Virus record (IMG/VR): IMGVR_UViG_3300043468_000908
Span: 1-32,066 of that record
Origin: a virus
Direction: 5' to 3' (one strand)
Length of the DNA stretch: 32,066 bases
Shown here piece after piece: positions 3,573 to 16,514 of this stretch (position 1 is its first letter; every line of letters begins with the position of its first letter). Below the pieces are notes generated by a model. It was not told the DNA's origin and did not search any database. It saw only the letters and a list, made by a program, of their open reading frames with translations. The position numbers and the translations under genes were made by a program.

Positions 3573-6500
3573 ATGGTCGACTCAACGCTCTATCCCGCGT
3601 CCGAAGCATTTAACGCAGGCTTGGAGGCGACAGGGGTAGGCGATACGGCTGCCGGCCGGTCAATTTTCCAGTCCCGTGAAGCGCAAAAAGCGCCCGGCCC
3701 CGATCCGGAAACGATCGACGCTTTCAAAGCGGCCGCCGTGAAATACAACGTCCCGGCCGACGTCCTGCTTTCGATCGCCGAGAAGGACTCGAATTTCAAC
3801 GCCTTCAACCGCTCGCGCGGCCCCGGCGCTAAAGTGCGCGGGATCATCAATGTCTCTGATGAGGAAGTCTCGCGCGGCGAAAACGGCAATCCATACGACC
3901 CCAGCCAAAACGTAGACGCTGCCGCGCGCAAAATCCGCTCCTACATGGACGCGGGCATGTCGGTGCAGGACGCCATCAAAGCCCATGCCGGCGGCGTCGA
4001 TAAGAGCAAATGGGGACCAGACGTCGAAGCCTATGGGCAGGACGTCATGTCCCGCACGCAGCGCTTGGCCGAGCAATTCATTCCCGAGGCCGCGCCGCGC
4101 GTGGTCGAAACGGAAACGCATCGAGACGCCAAAGGTCAGGCGGTCCCGCCGACGGTCGAAGAACAGCGTCAAATGTTCGGCATCACCGATCCGGGTCGCC
4201 CCGGCATTGGTCAGCAGCTTGGCGAAGACGTGCAGCGCGGCACGGCCAATCTGGCAAACATCGGCCGCGGACTGAAAGGCATGGCGCAGGCGGCGGTGGG
4301 GGATGAAGCCGGCGCGAAAGCCACGCTCGATGAATACGTCAAACGCGAATATCTCAACGCTCGCGAAAACCCGGCGGTCATCGGCAGCTATAAAAACGTC
4401 AAGGATTTTGGCGACGCCGGCCGATATGCGGTTGAGGCGATCGGCGAAAACGCCGCCATGTTCCTGCCAGCGCTCGCCACCGGCGGCATCGGCGCAGTTG
4501 CAGGCCGCGGCATTGCGGAGCGCGCGGCGGTTCGCTTTATTGAGGATCAGGTCGCAAAAGGCATGAGCCGCGAGGCGGCTGAGACGCTGGCCGCAAAGAT
4601 GGTGGAGCGCGGGATCACGGTCGGCGCGGCCGCCGGCGCGGCTCCGTCAACCATGGGCATGGAAACCGGCTCGATTGGCGGCGACATTTACAAAGAGACG
4701 GGACAAATCCGCCCTGGCGTTGCGGCCGTTGGCGGCGCGGCCGCCGGCGCACTCGATCTTGTCGAGCCGGTCATGGCGATCAAAAAGGCTTTTGGGCCGT
4801 CCGTCGCTGAGCCGGTCAAGGACATGGTCATCAGCGCGATCGCCAAGCGCGTTGGCGTCGAGGGCTTGAAACAATTTGCGGTCGAAGCCGGCACCGAAGG
4901 CTTGCAGACGATCATCGAGCAGGCTTCGACGCGCAACGTAGACGGTAAGGCGCTTTTTACCCCTGAATTGCTCGACGAGGTGGTGGATTCTGCGCTCAAG
5001 GGCGGCATCGGCGGCGGCGTCATGGGCGTCGGATCGCAGGTCGCCAATGAGATTGCAGAGCCGCGCACCGTTCCTGAACCTGCGCCAGAGCGCAAAGAGC
5101 CGACGATCGAGGCAGGTTCTCCCCCGCCGCCGCCGGCCGCCGCCGGCGAAGCGGTCAAAGAAATTGCCGCAGAAGCGCCCGGCCGCCAAACCTCCGCAGA
5201 TTTGCAGGCCGTTGAACAGGCGGCTCCGAAGCCGGCGACCGCGCGTCCCGGCGGCCAAGGCCCACTGTCTCGCATCCTCGAAACGGGCGCGCCAGAAGTG
5301 GCCCCGCTGGCGACCGCCGCCGGCGAGCGCGTCACCCTTTCCGACGAAATGGGCAGCCTCACGGGCGCCGTCATTTCGCAGGACGCAGAAGGCGTGCTGT
5401 TCAAGTCGGATGACGGTCTCGAGCAGTTAATCAGCAATCAGGACATTGTTGACGGCAAGGTGAGGATCGCCAAGGGCGGCGAAGCGCCGGTTTCCCAGGC
5501 TCCCGCGCCAGTCGTGGAGCCGGCCCCAGCGCCCGTTGTCTCTCAAGAAGCGCCGGTCAGTGAGACGCAAGCCGCGTTGCCTTCAACGGAAGAGACGCAA
5601 GCCGCGCCGGCAAAAGAAGCGACCGACAGCGACATCGCCGAGCAGGCGATGGCCACGATCACCGAGCCGCCGGTCACGTTCAAGCGCACCTACGAGGATA
5701 TGTCCGAGCCGGAGTTGCGCGATCGGATGAAATACATCGCTGGTCAGGCAAAGGCCGCCGGCGGCTGGAACAAGATGCTCATTGAAGAGCGCAAGAAGAT
5801 TGAAAAGGCGATCAACGCGCTCAAAGCGCCCGCTCCTGCCCTGCCCGAGAATGAGAAGCCGGCGAGCGCGCCGTCGCCTTTGCCTACCGCGGAACAAGTC
5901 TCTGCCGATATGAAAGACGCCGGCGATCAGGCGAAGGCTACAGCAGGCTTTGACGCGGCGTCCGTTGCGCAGCGCCAGCAAGAGCGCGCTGATTTCGACA
6001 AGCGGTTTGCCGAAGCGCAGGCCAACTCCAAGGCGGCCATCGATGAAATGCGGGCCACCACGGAGCGCTTGCTTGGCCGGGACAAGCCCAAGGCGGAGGA
6101 ACCCGCGCCTACCATTGATCCAAACAAACTGCGGTGGATTCTCAACAACACCTGGGGCGCGCGTCCGGCCGCACAGGCGGCAGTCGAGAACAACGGCCTG
6201 ACGGCAACCCATGAGGTTACGGACAACGGCAAGGGCCGGTTCACAGTCGTTCCGAAGGCGGAAAAGGACGTGTCAACGCAATCGACACGTCCCGAAAACG
6301 TGTCGATGAATCAGGAAAAAATTGACACGTCGGCGCAAGCGCCGGCCGCGACTGAGGCTACAGAGCGCTGGGAATACCCACCGCAATCCGGTGAGCCAAA
6401 AGACCATTACGAAGGCAAAAAAGCCGTCGTCGATTATATGAACAAAGACATTGGCAAAGACGAGCTTATTAATCGTCTTTCCAGTCTCGACATGCCAGAA

Positions 6501-9500
6501 GGTGTGCTTCAGGCAATAACAAACCGTGTTTCCGATTTCGTCGAAAATGACATTCAGAAAGTTCTGACAAACCAAAAAGCGCGCGCGTCTGCGCCCGCGC
6601 CAGTCGAGACGAAGAAGCCGCGCCGTGACGCCGCGCGCCGCACACAGAAAAAGGCGAAGGCGGTCGAGCAGCCGGCACCGAAAAAGCCAGCGCCGCAGCA
6701 GAAGCTGATCGGCGAGAACCGCCGCGGCAACAAGGTATATGAAGACGAGAACGGCGTCCGGTCGTATGTCGAAAGCGGCATAAGGGTTTCAGAACCCGTT
6801 GAGATCGTCCCCGGCGGCCCCGCATCGTTCGACTCAAGCCGTCGCAGCTCTGATTTCAAAACTCGCGACGAGCTTGCGCCGCCGGCGGCCGAGAAAGCCG
6901 CCGAGCCCGCCGTCTCGCAAAACAGCGTCTTCACCGATGACGCCTACGCCGCAGCCGTCGCGCGCTTCAACAAGCGCCACAAGGGCTCAAAGTTCAATTC
7001 CGGCATTGATCCGGAGGACTTGGCCGACGGCATCATCATGGCCGGCTATCACATCGAGAAGGGCGCTCGCACCTTCTCCGCCTATGCCGAAGCCATGCTC
7101 GAGTCTTTGGGCGAGAAGGTTCGCCCGTTCCTGAAATCGTGGTATCTTGGCGTTAAATTCGATCCGCGCGGAGCCGGCTTTGATGGCATGGACAGCGCGG
7201 CCGCCGTCGAGGCGTTTGATCTTGCCTCGCTGAATGGAGAGCGGAATGAACCTGCAAAACTGGATCAACCAAGCGCGGGAGCACTGGAAGGAGTTCCAGC
7301 CAACGCGGTTCAAGGAGCTACAGAAGGCCGGGAAGCTGGAACCCGCGCTGAAAGAGGCGGCCGAGAAGACACATCAGGAAATGAGCGAGCTGGAAGCCCA
7401 GGGCTTTCAGGAATGGGAAGCGTGGGAAATGGTCAGGGAGAGCTACCTATTCCCGCCGGAAGAGCAGAGCCTCAAGGATCAAGAGGACAACGAGCCAGTG
7501 GCGAGCGAAGCGGCGAGACTGTTCAACGAGATCGCGCGTCTCAAGAGCGAAATCCTGCGCGGGGAGATCGGGGAAGACTAGACTCCGATCCGGCGTCCGG
7601 CCGTCCGGCTAAAGAAACGTCGGCTGATTTTGCGATCTCGGACGAGGACCGGATCGGCGAAGGCGGCCAGAAGACCAAATACAAAAACAACGTCGCTGCA
7701 ATCCGCATCCTCAAGCGCCTCGAAGAGACCGGCGAGCCGGCGTCGCGCGCCGATCAGGCGGCGCTCGCCAAATACGTCGGCTGGGGCGGCATCCCGCAGG
7801 CTTTCGAGCGCAGCGATGGCGCGGTCTCGAAGGGATGGGAGAAAGAGGCGGCCGAGCTTAAGGAGCTTCTGACGCCCGAAGAATACGCCGAAGCGGCGGC
7901 ATCCACGCAATATGCGCACTACACCGCGCCCGAGGTCGTTTCGGCCATGTGGGACGGCATGCGCCGCATGGGCTTCAACGGCGGCCGTGTGCTTGAGCCC
8001 GGCATGGGCGTCGGCAATTTCTTCGGTCTCATGCCAAAAGATTTGCGCGCGGCGTCTGCGCTGCACGGCGTCGAGAAGGACATCATCACCGGCGGCGTCG
8101 CCAAAGGTCTCTATCCGGCGGCCAAGATCGCAGCGCCCATGGATTTCCGCGACTACACGATTCCGGAAGGCTACTTCGACGCCGCAATCGGAAACCCGCC
8201 CTTCGCCTCGACCAAGATCAAAGACACGGTCAATCGAGACATCAGCGGCTTCTCCCTGCACAATTACTTCTTCGCCAAAGCGCTGAACGGCCTGAAACCG
8301 GGCGGCGTCATGTCGATGGTCGTGACCAGTCGCATGCTCGACAGCATCAGCGACGCCTCACGGCAATACATGGCGGCGCGCGCCGATCTGGTCGCGGCCA
8401 TTCGCCTGCCAAATAACGCATTCCTCAAGAACGCCGGCACGCAGGTCACGACCGACATCATCATCCTGCGCAAGCGCAAGGAGGGCGAAAAGCCGTCCGG
8501 AGAGACGTGGTCAAAGGTCGGTGAATACACCAATGAGAAGGGCCAGACGGTCCCGCTCAATGAATATTTCATCCGTCATCCGGAGAACATGCTGGGCGAG
8601 TTTGGCCCGTTTGGCTCCATGTATAATCCCGACGAGCCGGCGCTTGTTTCGCGCGAGGGCCAGGACACCCCCGCGCTCCTGCGCGAGGCCATGGCGCGAC
8701 TGCCGCAGAACATCACCAGCGGCTCCGCCATCGAGGTGAAGGACGAGTCGTCGATTGACCCCACGTCGATCGAGCATGTCCGTGTCGGTTCGGCCTTTAT
8801 GCGTGATGGCAAGGTCATGCTGCGCGAGCCGGATCGTCTTGGCGAGCCGCAGGCGTCAGAGGCGACATTCCCGAGCGAGAAGGCCAAAGAGCGCGTCGTC
8901 GGCATGGTCGGCGTCCGCGACGCCTTCGCCAAGCTGCGCGCCCTACAGCTCAACGCCAAAGCGACCGACAAGCAAATCGAGGCGGCGCGCGCCGAGCTGA
9001 ACGGAGTTTATGACAAATTCGTCCGGACGAACGGCTACATCAACGAAGAGGCCAATAAGCGCCTATTCCGCGACGACCCGTCATGGCCGCAGATTTCGGC
9101 GCTTGAAGACGGTTTCAGCAAAGGGATCACGCCGGCGGTCGCAAAATCGACCGGGCAGGCTCCGGCCAAGCCGTCAGCCAAGAAGGCTGCGATCTTCTCC
9201 AAGCGCACGCAGTCCCCATACGCCCCGCCGACCAAAGCGGCGACGGCGAAGGACGCGCTGCTGGCGTCGCTGTCAGAACGCGGTCGCATCGATCTCGACC
9301 TGATGCAAAAGCTTTACGGCAAGGATCAGGACGCCATCACCAAAGAGCTTGGCGATCTGGTCTATAACGACCCGATCAAAGGGCCGGTCACGCGCGAGGA
9401 ATATTTATCCGGAAACGTGAAGGCGAAGCTGGCGCAGGCCATCGAGGCGGCCCAGAATGACCCGGCCATGCAGCGCAATGTGGATGCGCTGCGCGAGGTT

Positions 9501-12500
9501 CAGCCCCCGAATGTCGAGGCGATCGACATCGACGTGAAGATCGGATCACACTGGATTCCGATCGGCGTCATGCGCGAGTTCGCCGCGCATCTTCTCGGCA
9601 ACAGCAACAAGCTGAAAGTCATCTATAACCCGGCGACGGCTGGCTGGACGGTCTCCGGAGATCCGGACACCGACGCCGCCACCCGCTGGGGAACCAGCCG
9701 CGCGCGCGTCTCTGAGGTCATCGAGGCGGCCGCCAATCAGCGCTCCATCGTTATCCGTGACAAACAGTCCGACGGCACCTACGTCCTCAATGAGGTCGAC
9801 ACCCAGGCGGCCAATGACAAAGTTCAGGCCGTCAAGGATGAATGGCGTCGCTGGGTATTCGACGAAGATAGCCGGCGCGAGACGCTGGCCGGTCTCTACA
9901 ATGAAATGTTCAACACCAACGTCCGGCGGTCGTTCGACGGGTCGCATCTGACGTTCCCCGGAAAGGTCGGCGACGACGTCGTGCGCTTGCGGCCGCATCA
10001 GGCGAACGCAGTATGGCGCGCCCTCCAATCCTCCACGACGCTATTCGACCATGTGGTCGGCGCCGGCAAAACCTTCACGATGATCGCGGCCGCCATGGAA
10101 ATGCGGCGCATGGGTCTCGCCAAGAAGCCGATGTTTACGGTCCCCAACCACCTAGTCGGCCAATGGGCGGCGGATTTCGTCAAGCTCTATCCCAACGCGC
10201 AAATCCTTGCGGCGACCAAAAAGGATTTCGAGAAAGAGAACCGTAAAAAGCTCTTTGCCCGCATCGCCACCGGCGATTGGGACGCCGTGATCGTCGCTCA
10301 TTCGTCCTTCGCCAAGGTCGAGGTCGATCCGGCTTCACAAAACGCCTTCATCGAAAAGCAGGTCGCCGATCTTCTGAAAACGGAAGAGGCCATGCGCGCC
10401 GCTGACGGCAAGGACAGCCGCAATGTCAAGCAGGTTCAGAACCGGATCGAGAAACTGCGCGAAAAGCAAAAGCGCCTTCTCGACACGGGAGCCAAGGACG
10501 ACTCGCTCTACTGGAAAGAGCTGGGCGTCGATGCGCTCTTCCTCGACGAGGCCCATGAGTTCAAGAACCTCGAGTTCTCGACGTCCATGCAGCGTGTCGC
10601 CGGTCTCGGCAACCAAGCGGGCAGCCAAAAAGCCTCTGACCTTTACTTAAAAGTCAATCAGGTGCTCGAGGCCACGGGCGGCAGAAACGTCGTGTTTGCG
10701 ACCGGCACGCCGATCTCAAACACCATGGCCGAAATGTTCACGATGCAGCGCTATCTCGATGGCAAAGCGCTTGAAGAGCAGGGCTTGAGCCATTTCGACG
10801 CTTGGGCGCGTCTCTATGGCGACGTGGTGACGGATTGGGAGCTTTCACCCTCTGGCGCTTACAAGATGAACAGCCGGTTCGCGAAATTCGTGAACATGCC
10901 TGAATTGATGCAGCGCTATACGTCGTTCGCCGACGTCATCAATCGCGACGACATCAACGCCCAGCTCGCGGAGCGCGGTGAAAAGCTGCCCGTCCCCAAG
11001 ATCAAGGGCGGCAAGCCGCAAAACATCGTCGTCGAACGCAGCCCGGATCAGGCCGATTTCATGGCTTCTCTGGTGAAGCGCGCCGAGAACCTTCCCAAGA
11101 AGGTGACGAAGGGCTCCGACAACATGCTCAAGATCATGTCGGACGCGCGCAAATCCGCGCTCGACATGCGCCTGATTGATCCGGCCTATCCGGATTATGC
11201 AGAGAGCAAGGTCAATAACGCCGCCAATCGGATCGTCGATCTTTACAAGAAATGGGCTGACGACAAAGGCACGCAGCTTGTCTTCATCGACCTTTCCACC
11301 CCGAAAGGCGCGGTTGCAAAAGAACAGGCGGCGCTGCGCGAGCTGATTGCGAAGGCGGAGTCTGGGGACGAGGTGGCGCAGGAAAAGCTCGACGCCATGA
11401 GCCCGGATGAATTGCTGGCGCTCGATGCTCGGTTCTCGGTCTATGACGACCTGAAACTGAAATTGATTGAGCGCGGCATCCCTGAAAACGAGATCGCCTT
11501 CATCCACGACGCCACCACCGAGCAGAAAAAGGAAGAGCTTTTCGGCAAGGTGAAATCCGGCCGCGTCCGCGTCCTGTTTGGCTCGACGGCCAAAATGGGC
11601 GCTGGCATGAACGTGCAGGAGCGGCTTGTCGCCCTGCATCACCTCGATGCGCCGTGGCGTCCGGCCGACCTCGAGCAGCGCGAGGGCCGGATCATTCGTC
11701 AGGGCAACATCCTCCGCGACCGCGACCCGGAAAACTTTGAGGTCGAGATCAATCGATACGCCGCCAAAGCGACGCTCGACAGCCGCATGTGGCAGACGAT
11801 CGAAGGCAAGGCGCGCTTTATTGAGCAGGTCCGCAAGGGAACCGAAGGCTCGCGCGAGATCGAGGACGTCGCCGGCGAGGCGGCGAACGCGGCCGAGATG
11901 AAGGCGGCAGCCAGCGGAAATCCGTTGATCCTCGAAGAAATGACCCTGCGCCAGCGCGTCAAAAAGCTCGAGAACGAAGAGCGCGCCCACCGTCAGGAAC
12001 AGTGGAGCATCAAAGACCGCATCAAGCAGAATGAAAAATCGATCGCGTTTAGTGAACAATCCCTCGAGACCATGCGCGAGGACGCCAAGGTTGAGATACC
12101 GGAAGAGTTCGCAATGTCGATCCGGGGCGAGACCTTCGATAAGCGCAAGGACGCCGGCGCAAAGATCATGGAGGAAGCTTTCAGCATGCGCGACGCCGGC
12201 GCGACGTCGGCGGCGATCGGCAGCTATGGCGGCTTCAAGATCACGCTTCACTATCGCCCGGAAGCCCTTGTCTTCCACATGACGCTCAAAGGTAAGGGCG
12301 AATACACCTCTTCGTCGTTCCAAATGTCCGCAGACCCGCAGGGCGTCGCCCAGCGTGTCGTCGTCCTTGCCCGCGAGACGCGCGATCTCGCTTCGGTCGA
12401 GAAAGCAATCGCCGAGCGCAAGACGATCATCGGCAAGCTCAATTCCCAGGTTAAAGACTGGCCGAAGAAGGACGAGCTTGCAGAGGCGAAAAAGCGCCAT

Positions 12501-15500
12501 AGCGATATTATCGCTGAGCTTAAACCCAAGCAGAAACCCGCCGAAGCGCCGGCCGAAGAGCCCAAGGCGTCGATTGGTCGTGGCGCGGGCATGTCGCCGG
12601 CCGATCTGGTCGATACGCTGACGAGCGGCAAGGATGGATCGATCATCCAAGCCATGCTCGACTCTGGAAAGGTCGTCGTCGAGGCAAACGGCGCAGGCAT
12701 GCCGACCGGCGCACAAGCCGTGACCATGCCTGACGGAACGATCCGACTGGTCGCCAGCAATGTTGATGCCTCGACCGCGCGCGGCGTGCTGCTGCATGAG
12801 GTCTTCCACGTCGGCGCACAGGCGCTCGTCGGTCAGGACAACTGGAAGGCGCTGCTGCGCCGCGTCCAGACGGCGGCCGATGGCGCAAAGCCCGGCAGTT
12901 GGATGGCGAAAGCCAAGGCGAGGGCCGAAGCGGCTGACACCTCTGCCGCCAGCATGGCGGAAGAAATCGCCGCCTACGCCGTCGAGAACAGCGAGAACGC
13001 TCCCGCCGGCATCCGTGAGATCGCCGATCGTCTGGTTGGCGCGGTCAAGGCATGGGCGCTGCGCAAGTTTGGCGTTCAGTTTGGCCAGGTGACGCCCGGC
13101 CAGCTTCGCGCGCTTGCGGTCTCGGCCCTGCGTTCTTGGAAGGCGGCCCCGGCGACAAAGACGGTCGATGGCGTGCGCTATTCGATCGCCGACAGGGCGA
13201 AGGCGGCTCTGGCGCCCAGCAAGAAATCGGTTTTCGAGCGCGCCAAGGACAAGGCGTCGAATTTCCTCACCGACATGATGGTCGGCAAGGGATCGAACCT
13301 CGGCGACTTTAGCCTGCTGGCCCTGGCTCCCGTGCGTCCGCTGTTCATGGAGCTGACGGAAGGCATGCCGTCGGCCCGCAACTATCTCGATGTGAAGCAG
13401 GCCATGGACGCAGATCGCAACGCGATGAACGTCGAGGCCGACAAGATTCTGCAAGAATGGACAAAATGGGCGTCCAAGAACAAAGACGCCAACAAAGAGC
13501 TTATGCGTCTCATGCACGAAACGACGCTTGAGCAATATGACCCGAGCCCGGAAGGCCGTAGCAGCAACGCGGGGCCAAACCCTGCCCTGCAACGCGCCTA
13601 TGACGCGCTTCCCGACGAGGCGAAGCGGCTCTATTCGGTGATCCGCGACACCTACTCGGAGCGCGCCGACGCTGTTGAGGCGCAAATCATTGAGAACGTG
13701 AAACAGGCGATGGGCCACACGATCCGCAACGCGGAGCGCAAATACAACGCCGAGATACAGCGCATCAAGGACGAAGGGCTCACCGGCGAGGAAAAGACCA
13801 AAGCCGAGAAAGCGGCCAAAGACGCGCTTGAAATGGTCCGCACCCGCGGCCGTCGCAACAAGGCGGCTCGCCTGAAACGCATGCGCGAATATTTCGAGAG
13901 CAACCGCCTTGCTGGCCCGTATTTCCCGCTGGCGCGCTTTGGCAATTACTTCGTCACGGTCCGCGACGAAGACGGCAAGATTATCTCCTTCTCCAAATTC
14001 GAGAAGGCGGCCCAGCAGAAAGCCTTCGCCGATGAAATGCGCGAGGCTTATGGCAAGGACGCTGTGCAGGAAAGCCTTGCATCGAGAAAGACCGACGAAG
14101 AGCGCAATCTTGATCCGCGTTTCATTGCGACGATCGACTCGATCTTGGACAACGCCGACATTGACGTGTCTGTCCGCGATCAGGTCTATCAGGCGTATCT
14201 CGAAACCCTGCCGGACCTGTCTGTCCGTAAATCGCGCATCCATCGTAAGGGAACGGCCGGCTTTAACGAGGACGCCGTGCGCGCCTTCGCAAGCCAAATG
14301 TTCCATGGCGCGCACCAGCTCGCCCGCTTGCGCTTTGGCATGCAGCTACAGGATCACCTCGCCGAGGCGGCGACTGAAATTCGCAACGCGCCCGATCCGG
14401 TCCGCGCCGAATCCGTGATGAATGAAATCAGGCAGGCGCATGATTTCATCATCAACCCGAGCACGTCGCCGCTCGCGCATCACATGACGTCGGCCGTGTT
14501 CCTCTGGACGATGGCTTTCAACCTGTCATCTGCGGTCGTGAACGCCTCGCAGACCGTGACCATGGGCATCCCGAACCTTGCGTTTGACCCGGACACGAAA
14601 GCCGGCATCAAAAACGCGACGCGCCAGCTTTCCAATGCGACGCGCGATTTCCTGATCGGCAAGGGCTTCGCCGGCAACGCCTCGACGCTTTCGACCGACG
14701 AGCGCGCCGCGATGAAGGTCGGTTATGACTCCGGCTTGATCGAGGACTCGCAATCGCACGACCTCGCGGGCGTGGCGGAAAGTGGCATCGACTACAATCC
14801 GGCCGCCCAGAAGGTCATGCGCATGGCCTCTTGGCCGATGCACCAGGTCGAGCGCTTCAACCGCGAGATCACCTATCTGGCGGCTTACCGGATCGCGCGC
14901 GCCGCTGGACTGGATCACCAGAAGGCCATCCGTAAGGCGTCTGATCTCACCTGGATGAGCCATTTCGACAACCAGTCGAACGCCAAACCGCGCTTCATGC
15001 GTCGCGATCTTGGCAAGGTGCTTTTCGCCCTGAAAGCCTATCAGGCGAACATCATCTTCCGGACCTTCCGTGATCTACACCAGGCTCTTAATGGCGTGGA
15101 CACGGAGACCAGGAACACCGCCTTGAAGCGCTTCGCTGCAACCTTCGGCCTGACGATGGGCGTTGCCGGCATCAAAGGATCGTTCGCCTACAGCACGGTC
15201 ATGATGATTGCTGGCGCGCTCATGGGCTTGCTCGGCGACGACGACGATCCGGATGAAAAACTCCGCAAGGCGATCGTCGAGAAGGCCGGCGATTCGATGG
15301 TTGGCCGGGCGGTTTCCGGCATGCTCATGGATGGCGTTCCCGGCTACTGGACCGGCACGTCGCTTTCCGGCCGCATGGGTATGGGCGATCTTTGGTTCCA
15401 CACCAATGACCGCGATTTCACACCAGAACAGCGCTGGCAAAATTATCTTGAGCAGTTCCTTGGCGCCGGCGTCTCGCGCGCTCACCAGGCGTATTCTGGC

Positions 15501-16004
15501 GCGGTCCTAATCATGCGCGGTGACGTCATGAAGGGGCTCGAAAAGCTGGCTCCGGCCGCTCTCGGCAACCCGTTAAAGGCCGCCCGCTACGCTAGAGAAG
15601 GCGTGCTGGATAAATACGGCAACCCGATCGTAGAGAACGTCCCGCCGCAAGACTTGCTCAAGCAGGTCATCGGCTTCACGCCGGCCGAGATCGCCGACCG
15701 TTACGCCCGAAATAACTACCAATATAACACCCAAAAACGGATAAAATCCGAGGCGACCGAGGCCCGGCAGGGCGTGGCGCGGGCGCGCATGACCGGCGAC
15801 CAGGCGGCGGAAGAAAAGGCTCAGAAGAAGGTGGACGCCTTCAATGAGCGCTATCCGGATTACACAATCAAACCGAAAAGCATAATCCAATCAATGCGAG
15901 CGATGGAGAACAGGTCAGATCGTATGGAGTTTGGCGTCGATCTCGATCCCAAGCTCGCCGAGCGCGTAAAAGCCGGCACATCGCCGTCTATCTACGCCAG
16001 ATAG
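3573..16004 (+). CDS. Giant 4143-residue polyvalent protein: transglycosylase-like, N6-methyltransferase, SNF2-like helicase, HExxH and PLxRFG segments
   Basis: One unbroken frame. Residues 50-165 are a lytic transglycosylase-like domain (YNVPADVLLSIAEKDS, E70 the candidate catalytic acid). About 290-400 is Ala/Gly-rich and hydrophobic, perhaps membrane-inserting. Pro/Ala linkers follow to about 1130. About 1130-1220 is a segment common in large polyvalent proteins (SGIDPEDLADG, KGARTFSAYAEAM, LKSWYLG). About 1350-1700 is an N6-adenine methyltransferase with LEPGMGVGNF near 1474 and NPPF at 1541-1544. About 2130-2800 is an SF2/SNF2-like helicase with GAGKT at 2163-2167, DEAH at 2325-2328 and QREGRIIRQGN at 2702-2712. 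A coiled coil follows, then HEVFH at 3075-3079 and PLARFG at 3452-3457. Hydrophobic helices lie near 3644-3674 and 3858-3888. Such proteins are thought to be injected with phage DNA and protect it, as P1 DarB does, while the head opens the wall as T7 gp16 does. Family assignments come from motifs; the ejection role is inference. Confidence 0.85.
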   Translation: MVDSTLYPASEAFNAGLEATGVGDTAAGRSIFQSREAQKAPGPDPETIDAFKAAAVKYNVPADVLLSIAEKDSNFNAFNRSRGPGAKVRGIINVSDEEVSRGENGNPYDPSQNVDAAARKIRSYMDAGMSVQDAIKAHAGGVDKSKWGPDVEAYGQDVMSRTQRLAEQFIPEAAPRVVETETHRDAKGQAVPPTVEEQRQMFGITDPGRPGIGQQLGEDVQRGTANLANIGRGLKGMAQAAVGDEAGAKATLDEYVKREYLNARENPAVIGSYKNVKDFGDAGRYAVEAIGENAAMFLPALATGGIGAVAGRGIAERAAVRFIEDQVAKGMSREAAETLAAKMVERGITVGAAAGAAPSTMGMETGSIGGDIYKETGQIRPGVAAVGGAAAGALDLVEPVMAIKKAFGPSVAEPVKDMVISAIAKRVGVEGLKQFAVEAGTEGLQTIIEQASTRNVDGKALFTPELLDEVVDSALKGGIGGGVMGVGSQVANEIAEPRTVPEPAPERKEPTIEAGSPPPPPAAAGEAVKEIAAEAPGRQTSADLQAVEQAAPKPATARPGGQGPLSRILETGAPEVAPLATAAGERVTLSDEMGSLTGAVISQDAEGVLFKSDDGLEQLISNQDIVDGKVRIAKGGEAPVSQAPAPVVEPAPAPVVSQEAPVSETQAALPSTEETQAAPAKEATDSDIAEQAMATITEPPVTFKRTYEDMSEPELRDRMKYIAGQAKAAGGWNKMLIEERKKIEKAINALKAPAPALPENEKPASAPSPLPTAEQVSADMKDAGDQAKATAGFDAASVAQRQQERADFDKRFAEAQANSKAAIDEMRATTERLLGRDKPKAEEPAPTIDPNKLRWILNNTWGARPAAQAAVENNGLTATHEVTDNGKGRFTVVPKAEKDVSTQSTRPENVSMNQEKIDTSAQAPAATEATERWEYPPQSGEPKDHYEGKKAVVDYMNKDIGKDELINRLSSLDMPEGVLQAITNRVSDFVENDIQKVLTNQKARASAPAPVETKKPRRDAARRTQKKAKAVEQPAPKKPAPQQKLIGENRRGNKVYEDENGVRSYVESGIRVSEPVEIVPGGPASFDSSRRSSDFKTRDELAPPAAEKAAEPAVSQNSVFTDDAYAAAVARFNKRHKGSKFNSGIDPEDLADGIIMAGYHIEKGARTFSAYAEAMLESLGEKVRPFLKSWYLGVKFDPRGAGFDGMDSAAAVEAFDLASLNGERNEPAKLDQPSAGALEGVPANAVQGATEGREAGTRAERGGREDTSGNERAGSPGLSGMGSVGNGQGELPIPAGRAEPQGSRGQRASGERSGETVQRDRASQERNPARGDRGRLDSDPASGRPAKETSADFAISDEDRIGEGGQKTKYKNNVAAIRILKRLEETGEPASRADQAALAKYVGWGGIPQAFERSDGAVSKGWEKEAAELKELLTPEEYAEAAASTQYAHYTAPEVVSAMWDGMRRMGFNGGRVLEPGMGVGNFFGLMPKDLRAASALHGVEKDIITGGVAKGLYPAAKIAAPMDFRDYTIPEGYFDAAIGNPPFASTKIKDTVNRDISGFSLHNYFFAKALNGLKPGGVMSMVVTSRMLDSISDASRQYMAARADLVAAIRLPNNAFLKNAGTQVTTDIIILRKRKEGEKPSGETWSKVGEYTNEKGQTVPLNEYFIRHPENMLGEFGPFGSMYNPDEPALVSREGQDTPALLREAMARLPQNITSGSAIEVKDESSIDPTSIEHVRVGSAFMRDGKVMLREPDRLGEPQASEATFPSEKAKERVVGMVGVRDAFAKLRALQLNAKATDKQIEAARAELNGVYDKFVRTNGYINEEANKRLFRDDPSWPQISALEDGFSKGITPAVAKSTGQAPAKPSAKKAAIFSKRTQSPYAPPTKAATAKDALLASLSERGRIDLDLMQKLYGKDQDAITKELGDLVYNDPIKGPVTREEYLSGNVKAKLAQAIEAAQNDPAMQRNVDALREVQPPNVEAIDIDVKIGSHWIPIGVMREFAAHLLGNSNKLKVIYNPATAGWTVSGDPDTDAATRWGTSRARVSEVIEAAANQRSIVIRDKQSDGTYVLNEVDTQAANDKVQAVKDEWRRWVFDEDSRRETLAGLYNEMFNTNVRRSFDGSHLTFPGKVGDDVVRLRPHQANAVWRALQSSTTLFDHVVGAGKTFTMIAAAMEMRRMGLAKKPMFTVPNHLVGQWAADFVKLYPNAQILAATKKDFEKENRKKLFARIATGDWDAVIVAHSSFAKVEVDPASQNAFIEKQVADLLKTEEAMRAADGKDSRNVKQVQNRIEKLREKQKRLLDTGAKDDSLYWKELGVDALFLDEAHEFKNLEFSTSMQRVAGLGNQAGSQKASDLYLKVNQVLEATGGRNVVFATGTPISNTMAEMFTMQRYLDGKALEEQGLSHFDAWARLYGDVVTDWELSPSGAYKMNSRFAKFVNMPELMQRYTSFADVINRDDINAQLAERGEKLPVPKIKGGKPQNIVVERSPDQADFMASLVKRAENLPKKVTKGSDNMLKIMSDARKSALDMRLIDPAYPDYAESKVNNAANRIVDLYKKWADDKGTQLVFIDLSTPKGAVAKEQAALRELIAKAESGDEVAQEKLDAMSPDELLALDARFSVYDDLKLKLIERGIPENEIAFIHDATTEQKKEELFGKVKSGRVRVLFGSTAKMGAGMNVQERLVALHHLDAPWRPADLEQREGRIIRQGNILRDRDPENFEVEINRYAAKATLDSRMWQTIEGKARFIEQVRKGTEGSREIEDVAGEAANAAEMKAAASGNPLILEEMTLRQRVKKLENEERAHRQEQWSIKDRIKQNEKSIAFSEQSLETMREDAKVEIPEEFAMSIRGETFDKRKDAGAKIMEEAFSMRDAGATSAAIGSYGGFKITLHYRPEALVFHMTLKGKGEYTSSSFQMSADPQGVAQRVVVLARETRDLASVEKAIAERKTIIGKLNSQVKDWPKKDELAEAKKRHSDIIAELKPKQKPAEAPAEEPKASIGRGAGMSPADLVDTLTSGKDGSIIQAMLDSGKVVVEANGAGMPTGAQAVTMPDGTIRLVASNVDASTARGVLLHEVFHVGAQALVGQDNWKALLRRVQTAADGAKPGSWMAKAKARAEAADTSAASMAEEIAAYAVENSENAPAGIREIADRLVGAVKAWALRKFGVQFGQVTPGQLRALAVSALRSWKAAPATKTVDGVRYSIADRAKAALAPSKKSVFERAKDKASNFLTDMMVGKGSNLGDFSLLALAPVRPLFMELTEGMPSARNYLDVKQAMDADRNAMNVEADKILQEWTKWASKNKDANKELMRLMHETTLEQYDPSPEGRSSNAGPNPALQRAYDALPDEAKRLYSVIRDTYSERADAVEAQIIENVKQAMGHTIRNAERKYNAEIQRIKDEGLTGEEKTKAEKAAKDALEMVRTRGRRNKAARLKRMREYFESNRLAGPYFPLARFGNYFVTVRDEDGKIISFSKFEKAAQQKAFADEMREAYGKDAVQESLASRKTDEERNLDPRFIATIDSILDNADIDVSVRDQVYQAYLETLPDLSVRKSRIHRKGTAGFNEDAVRAFASQMFHGAHQLARLRFGMQLQDHLAEAATEIRNAPDPVRAESVMNEIRQAHDFIINPSTSPLAHHMTSAVFLWTMAFNLSSAVVNASQTVTMGIPNLAFDPDTKAGIKNATRQLSNATRDFLIGKGFAGNASTLSTDERAAMKVGYDSGLIEDSQSHDLAGVAESGIDYNPAAQKVMRMASWPMHQVERFNREITYLAAYRIARAAGLDHQKAIRKASDLTWMSHFDNQSNAKPRFMRRDLGKVLFALKAYQANIIFRTFRDLHQALNGVDTETRNTALKRFAATFGLTMGVAGIKGSFAYSTVMMIAGALMGLLGDDDDPDEKLRKAIVEKAGDSMVGRAVSGMLMDGVPGYWTGTSLSGRMGMGDLWFHTNDRDFTPEQRWQNYLEQFLGAGVSRAHQAYSGAVLIMRGDVMKGLEKLAPAALGNPLKAARYAREGVLDKYGNPIVENVPPQDLLKQVIGFTPAEIADRYARNNYQYNTQKRIKSEATEARQGVARARMTGDQAAEEKAQKKVDAFNERYPDYTIKPKSIIQSMRAMENRSDRMEFGVDLDPKLAERVKAGTSPSIYAR
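7246..7581 (+). CDS. Nested overlapping gene inside the giant ORF; acidic helical protein of unknown function
   Basis: 111 residues in the +1 frame relative to the giant gene, starting MNLQNWINQAREHWKEF. The ATG has GGAGA (7236-7240) five bases upstream, a better ribosome site than that of the giant gene. An ATG at 7234 in the same frame is less well placed. The protein is charged and mostly helical, with a run AWEMVRESYLFPPEE that I recall, unverified, from a family of small stand-alone phage and mobile-element proteins. The giant frame opposite it (residues about 1225-1337) is a featureless Gly/Arg/Glu/Ser/Ala/Gln linker between two domains. That is what is expected if the nested frame carries the selective constraint. 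The function is unknown. The alternative is a chance open frame, but the start signal and the protein-like composition argue against it. Confidence 0.65.
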   Translation: MNLQNWINQAREHWKEFQPTRFKELQKAGKLEPALKEAAEKTHQEMSELEAQGFQEWEAWEMVRESYLFPPEEQSLKDQEDNEPVASEAARLFNEIARLKSEILRGEIGED

Positions 16005-16005
16005 G

Positions 16006-16034
16006 TTGAGAAATATCGGATATTATCCTATAGA
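16006..16034 (+). promoter_or_regulatory. Promoter of the lysis cassette with an operator in its spacer
   Basis: TTGAGA at 16006-16011, a 17-base spacer and TATAGA at 16029-16034 make a good sigma-70-type promoter immediately after the giant gene stop at 16004. The dyad TCGGA-TATTA-TCCTA (16016-16030, one mismatch to the consensus) occupies the spacer and overlaps the -10 by two bases. Bound protein would therefore block polymerase. The expected start is near 16041, leaving a short leader with GAGGA (16048-16052) six bases before the ATG at 16059. The elements are seen directly; repression is inference. Confidence 0.65.
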
Positions 16035-16058
16035 TGGTCGGAAATTCGAGGATGCAAT

Positions 16059-16514
16059 ATGCCCGTCTTTCCGACCAAGGCCATATTCGCGGGCATTTGC
16101 CTCGCCCTTTTGCCGCACGCTGCTGCGGCTGACCCTGTTTACGACCTGTTTGACGCTCTCTTCGGACCCCCGCTCGAAGATCGAGCCATCTCGCAGCGGC
16201 ACGGTCGTAAACATCGAGGCGGCCATGTTGTTTCGTTCTCCGGCAACATGGTCGCCTCTTTTTATGGCGGCGGCGAACGGCTGAACGCACACACGGCGAA
16301 TGGCGAGCGCTTTCACTCAGGCGCTTTCACCGCCGCGCATCGATCGCTTCCTTTCGGCACGCTGCTGCACGTCTGCTATCGCGGCTGCGCGACCGTGCGC
16401 ATTAATGACCGCGGCCCCGCCGCCTGGACCGGACGCTCTCTCGATCTTTCACGCGGCGCAGCGCACGCCATTGGCATGCCCGGCGTCGCGCGCGTCAGCG
16501 TATCGAGGCTGTGA
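16059..16514 (+). CDS. Secreted RlpA-like double-psi beta-barrel protein
   Basis: 151 residues with a clear Sec signal peptide (hydrophobic IFAGICLALL, Ala-rich cleavage region near residue 25, AAA before DP). The mature part has the RlpA/barwin-like double-psi beta-barrel pattern: SFYGGGERLNAHTANGERF, AAHRSLPFGTLL, VRINDRGP, then LDLSRGAAHAIGM and VARVSVSRL. In bacteria RlpA is a septal lytic transglycosylase acting on peptide-free glycan. The conserved DRGP loop with its Asp is present; a SPOR domain is absent. It is the first gene of the lysis cassette and has its own promoter, so a role in wall degradation at release is plausible. A role in entry, or as a host-derived cell-wall modifier, is an alternative. 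Confidence 0.75.
   Translation: MPVFPTKAIFAGICLALLPHAAAADPVYDLFDALFGPPLEDRAISQRHGRKHRGGHVVSFSGNMVASFYGGGERLNAHTANGERFHSGAFTAAHRSLPFGTLLHVCYRGCATVRINDRGPAAWTGRSLDLSRGAAHAIGMPGVARVSVSRL

Follow-up and report, generated by a model that had tools for sequence, protein, structure and literature searches.

A gene of 111 codons lies out of frame inside the giant gene of a virus record (IMG/VR IMGVR_UViG_3300043468_000908) whose 32,066 bases make up the window analyzed here, and it is almost certainly a real gene. Our preferred explanation, held with moderate confidence, is that the small gene is translated independently and that its product is most likely a dedicated partner of the DarB-like methylase-helicase encoded by the giant gene. 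To our knowledge, long out-of-frame nested genes have rarely been proven in prokaryotes and phages. Sequence evidence alone, drawn from a broad evolutionary range, is enough to demonstrate the present one; the gene it reveals is unannotated in every phage record examined, and the overlap is not described in the open-licence papers searched.

The Nested Gene and Its Start Signals

The nested open reading frame (7246–7581, plus strand) is in the +1 frame relative to the giant gene (3573–16004, plus strand, frame 0), and a Shine-Dalgarno sequence, GGAGA (7236–7240), is found 5 nt upstream of its ATG, with a duplex energy of −6.4. The coordinates and frames given in the original prediction were thus confirmed. 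The giant gene (12.4 kb) encodes a DarB-like polyvalent protein of 4143 amino acids in which an N6 methylase is fused to an SNF2-type helicase. Along the plus strand, it contains a transglycosylase (SLT) domain in the N-terminal half of the protein (3720–4001; PF01464, E 1.2e-6), the linker overprinted by the nested gene (7245–7583), rich in Gly, Ala, Arg and Glu as judged from codon score and composition, the beginning of the N6 DNA-methylase region (7677–8258), which was used as a landmark for finding relatives, an SNF2/ResIII-type helicase motor (9984–10568) and an LPD39 (large polyvalent protein associated) domain made of two adjoining pieces (13263–13796).

A second in-frame ATG exists at 7234; no Shine-Dalgarno sequence was found for it, and its anti-SD energy is +0.6 compared with −6.4 for the ATG at 7246. 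Among 74 distinct relatives, the nested start codon is ATG in 70 and GTG in four, and a GGAG-type site precedes it in 70. Anti-SD energy is −6.6 at the nested starts versus −2.5 at 444 ATGs in the same frame (p ~1e-31). Conservation of both the Shine-Dalgarno sequence and the start codon indicates that the nested gene has a translation start of its own. No promoter-like site was found upstream of the nested gene, and no internal promoter or terminator either. Conserved start signals combined with the lack of an upstream promoter lead us to infer internal initiation on the mRNA of the giant gene: ribosomes would start at the ATG at 7246 by using the internal GGAGA.

Constraint on the Two Overlapping Frames

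The fact that a 111-codon +1 frame is open in this GC-rich linker is not unusual. If the amino acids of the giant protein are kept and synonymous codons are reshuffled, the +1 frame stays open in 77% of the reshuffles, and other stop-free +1 stretches within the same giant gene reach 180 codons. However, nested homologues with 45–70% identity are found in the same frame and at the same place, and they share start signals and codon-level constraint. Because conservation, start signals and codon constraint go beyond chance, the nested frame can be regarded as a real gene with start signals of its own, as originally predicted.

Codon-level constraint was examined in 74 distinct nested sequences, after removal of duplicate records and without stand-alone copies, locus L102 and the frameshifted records of phage PBC5. 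The third codon position of the nested frame is the most variable (0.486), while the second position, which is the third of the giant frame, is the least variable (0.383). In the upstream flank, the most variable position is the third of the giant frame (0.649). A selection test was performed on 21 non-overlapping close pairs with 337 differences. Synonymous changes in the nested frame were 203, compared with 87.6 expected; synonymous changes in the giant frame over the same bases were 52, compared with 110 expected. Rough omega values over the shared bases are ~0.23 for the nested frame and ~2.7 for the giant frame, the latter being a product of the constrained overlapping frame and no sign of positive selection. 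Judged from these substitution patterns, purifying selection acts on the nested frame but not on the giant frame across the overlap. This comparison of synonymous and non-synonymous change over 7246–7581 had been suggested in the original prediction.

Other measures agree with this picture. Pairwise identity is higher in the nested frame than in the giant frame in 2680 of 2701 pairs, and the codon-usage score in the window is +0.10 for the nested gene, −0.42 for the giant gene over the same bases, and 0.264 (sd 0.069) for the rest of the giant gene. Across the 74 relatives, the overprinted portion of the giant frame encodes Gly, Ala, Arg, Glu and Ser at 18, 13, 12, 10 and 8.5%, respectively, in agreement with its initial description as a low-complexity Gly/Arg/Glu/Ser linker.

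The giant frame is open in 74 of the 74 relatives, while only 3.2 would be expected when nested amino acids are kept and codons are reshuffled; such reshuffling leaves it open in 4.3% of cases on average, and in 0.6% for the window. Hence, both frames are coding, a statement that applies to nested copies only, and both are under selection. In stand-alone copies of the small gene, the giant frame has stops: seven in L086, five in L097 and two in L082.

Distribution of the Overlap

A tblastn search with the nested protein yielded matches in 21 phage records with 45–64% identity, including phages of Klebsiella, Vibrio, Pseudomonas, Erwinia, Sinorhizobium, Ochrobactrum, Agrobacterium and Microcystis. 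Where these matches fall, the records annotate giant-gene or hypothetical CDSs; none annotates the small gene. Alignment-based scans detected a homologue of the nested protein in 68 loci from viruses and 22 from bacteria. Of 102 loci, counting the window, 94 have the homologue +1 to a long frame that is stop-free across the overlap, with the homologue placed just upstream of the DNA-methylase domain in giant genes. The two genes therefore form a conserved out-of-frame nested pair, and the same containment is found in all 30 loci of a second family, described below.

When viral contigs were searched by the methylase domain alone, and the best 80 of 416 loci were examined, a +1 open reading frame was present at the nested site in 80 of 80, a figure that concerns the nearest of the 416 loci and does not extend to the whole methylase family. 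Among those best 80, 68 belong to the same family as the window protein, nine to the second family and three are unclassified; the 68 are all in the +1 frame, 60–650 bases upstream of the methylase.

The stand-alone homologues whose search had been proposed were also found. Copies away from any methylase-helicase are present in L083, L086 and L097, and TnpV genes of this kind are found in L107, L251 and L253–L260; the small protein can thus work without the giant protein. Conversely, methylase-helicases without a nested gene are found in chromosomal loci L207–L213, a Lactococcus plasmid (L195), a Streptococcus phage (L202) and P1 (DarB), so the enzyme can work without the small protein. A DNA search of E. 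coli genomes with the L083 copy found none. Homologues exist, their starts are kept and constraint is stronger on the nested frame, which is the reverse of the outcomes named beforehand as arguing against a nested gene. The stand-alone copy of Pseudidiomarina (L097:5974–6762) is 262 aa long and has a hydrophobic C-terminal extension that is probably membrane-spanning.

The second family, B, was detected at the same site in other phages (L168, L181–L191, L198 and L217–L246), and a scan for it yielded 30 loci, in each of which it is nested +1 ahead of the methylase. Synonymous changes in family B were 85 versus 38.3 expected in the nested frame and 27 versus 47.2 expected in the giant frame, with omega values of 0.28 and 2.06, respectively. 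Family B apparently replaces the TnpV-like family at that site, by divergence or swapping. The alignment between the profiles of family B and the family of the window protein (A) is weak (E 0.002), and a helix layout is common to both. A Foldseek search with the family B model gave no match, so that their relation rests on position, frame, profile alignment and matching helix layout. Common descent is likely, albeit not proven.

Relationship with TnpV

TnpV (PF14198) is a small protein (~110 aa) of Tn4451-type and other mobilizable elements, and a role as regulator of gene expression or excision is loosely assumed. The Pfam TnpV profile is matched by 45 of 58 members of the nested family, with a best E of 1e-8 and one member above the curated cut-off; L102 scores 38.8 bits and L080 26.7 bits. 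The window protein scores 16.2 bits (E 0.01), below the gathering cut-off of 27 bits, and for this reason we name it a TnpV relative and not TnpV. Profile comparison supports common ancestry: hhalign of the profile against four TnpV sequences gave an E of 7.8e-5 and a probability of 61%. Both proteins are about 110 aa long and the same region is matched, with PF14198 profile positions 23–77 of 111 covered by the window protein and 32–108 by L080. In contrast, the window protein is devoid of the N-terminal stretch of TnpV and of its conserved C-terminal segment (consensus W..NN..A.EIV..EI), and it sits in a phage. Altogether, profile evidence points to a remote relative of TnpV, not TnpV itself. 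A wider TnpV search in the class of genome G218 found only one.

The nested protein is predicted to be a polypeptide of about 12 kDa with a confident four-helix core; in the predicted structure, residues 1–70 are all helical, with pLDDT values of 92–97. No convincing counterpart of the model was detected among solved structures, and NCBIfam and PADLOC gave no convincing direct match to the window protein. A match to the PHROG family phrog_938 ('endolysin') was discarded, as it probably reflects the PBC5 frameshift discussed below.

Plasmid and Bacterial Cases and Age of the Overlap

A tblastn search of plasmids with the window protein gave no match because plasmid relatives are too divergent. 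Two plasmids of Bacillota have an annotated TnpV gene that is nested +1. That of the Selenomonas plasmid NZ_CP017043 (67 bits) sits within the open frame of an SNF2-related methylase-helicase, and the annotation places the start of the enzyme after TnpV. That of the Cohnella plasmid NZ_CP051681 occupies the same position inside a frame of >1700 codons with a methylase. L252 is a third case. Burkholderia and Methylovorus plasmids have a small +1 open reading frame in a short N-terminal linker. In two genomes of the phylum of a Fibrobacter MAG (L102 and L109), the nested gene is found just past the giant gene's start. Evidence for an overprinted pair is weaker in an actinomycete: the small gene annotated at that site in a Streptomyces plasmid shows weak similarity only.

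The original prediction envisaged that two ancestral virion genes had fused across a small gene. The same overlap in plasmid methylase-helicases, including those of Bacillota with TnpV, speaks against this scenario: the overlap is older than the N-terminal fusion of phages, or independent of it. Most simply, a methylase-helicase gene would have been extended long ago upstream over a TnpV-like gene, and phage giants would have inherited the overlap. The linker of the giant protein is a by-product of the nested gene, and this part of the early proposal stands, as the nested frame is the constrained one. The linker of giant anti-restriction-type proteins has been shaped by another protein, and TnpV, an orphan transposon protein, becomes linked to DarB-like methylase-helicases.

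Possible Functions of the Small Protein

The small gene is closely linked to methylase-helicase genes across mobile elements, and frequent pairing with one type of enzyme suggests a dedicated partner. A tentative model is that a small TnpV-related helical protein, made from the nested frame, acts as a partner of the DarB-like methylase-helicase in assembly, virion loading or activity control, presumably by physical contact with the giant protein. By analogy with P1, a role as small helical partner of the DarB-like protein seems to us an even prospect. A bolder version is that the TnpV-family protein and the DarB-like methylase-helicase are a cross-phylum overprinted pair, carried by phages and plasmids from Pseudomonadota, Bacillota and Fibrobacterota, that stays together because the small protein is an obligatory partner; we would neither bet for it nor against it. 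If true, TnpV would gain its first functional lead, and the odd Gly/Arg linkers of DarB-like polyvalent proteins would have an explanation.

Embedding of one phage gene in another has a classical precedent in the spanin genes Rz and Rz1, which act in lysis and of which Rz1 is read from a start site of its own, out of frame, within Rz. The case described here is alike in that a phage gene lies wholly inside another, in a different frame and with its own start site; it differs in having no sequence relation to the spanins, in being hosted by a giant polyvalent gene and in occurring in plasmids as well. An embedded gene of the Rz/Rz1 type has been mentioned for phage JC1 (PMC9144972). The same study detected a DarB-like protein in JC1 virions by mass spectrometry, and no homologue of Ulx, DdrA, DdrB or Hdf is known there (PMC9144972). 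The giant protein of the window shares N6 methylase, SNF2 motor and LPD39 with the DarB-like polyvalent proteins surveyed by Iyer et al. 2017 (LPD36-MTase-SNF2 dyad; PMC5512222), and the main text of that survey makes no mention of TnpV or of the overlap. DarB of P1 has no nested counterpart. P1 does have small Dar proteins that assist DarB, such as Ulx, which aids DarB localization and helps DarB into the head (PMC9024508). Like the nested gene, ulx is a small gene on the same strand that adjoins darB, and it provides the model for the function proposed; unlike it, ulx is downstream of darB, not nested, and no sequence relation has been shown.

Among the alternatives, the one that fares best, though we consider it rather unlikely, is that the small protein is an independent accessory of mobile elements, for instance a regulator of expression or excision, whose only tie to the giant gene is shared space and mRNA. 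Stand-alone relatives exist, and in L107 and L251 TnpV genes adjoin HTH and relaxase genes, as this alternative would have it. However, space sharing does not explain why phages and several plasmids have the small gene at one place in the methylase-helicase gene, and no DNA-binding fold was found. We find it more doubtful still that the small protein works as an anti-defence factor in its own right, for example against type I restriction beside DarB-like protection. P1 DarB protects against type I enzymes (PMC5512222, PMC9024508), and three bacterial copies are near hsdM genes (HsdM_N + N6_Mtase) of type I systems (L097:10943–12226, L098:3320–5911 and L102:2367–4832); yet three loci only show this neighborhood, such islands collect many genes, no PADLOC family scored above noise and no known anti-restriction fold was matched.

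A programmed frameshift into the nested frame, yielding a shortened giant protein that ends in a TnpV-like domain, is very improbable. The upstream giant frame does continue directly into the nested frame in Sinorhizobium phage PBC5, but this reflects a one-base shift in a single old record. The Shine-Dalgarno sequence and the start codon are conserved, ATG being swapped only for GTG; 14 of 74 loci have an in-frame stop within five codons before the nested start; and slippery-type strings are found in only six of 74. Lastly, a chance open frame in GC-rich sequence whose conservation is a shadow of the giant protein would account for openness, but it is ruled out by homologues, start signals and codon constraint, since the giant frame is not the conserved one and copies of the small gene persist where that frame is full of stops.

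Annotation and Other Observations

The overlap explains a number of annotation errors, in which pipelines overlook the small gene or deprive the giant protein of its N-terminus. In two plasmids, annotations call the small gene (TnpV or hypothetical; L249:3283–4408 and L192:5476–6031) and let the methylase-helicase start only behind it, even though the large frame extends upstream without stops. In the PBC5 record (L009, around 8733–9309), a one-base shift just ahead of the nested gene carries the annotated CDS into the nested frame, where it ends; this probably explains the nested sequence at the end of phrog_938. In Pseudomonas phage Itty13 (L005, NC_070969), three minus-strand CDSs are annotated over the plus-strand giant open frame (3987–16323), probably a wrong-strand annotation.

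In L098, the hsdM gene is directly divergent from the small gene. In several unfused or short giant N-termini, a QLxLF/ISLFDF-like string that resembles a sliding-clamp-binding motif was observed shortly before the overprinted linker or the methylase (L102:5916; L109 1756, minus strand; L193 ~5560; L195; L202; L249). Finally, an antisense open frame of 1156 codons is found inside the giant gene of the window (10845–14315, minus strand) and is probably a composition effect.
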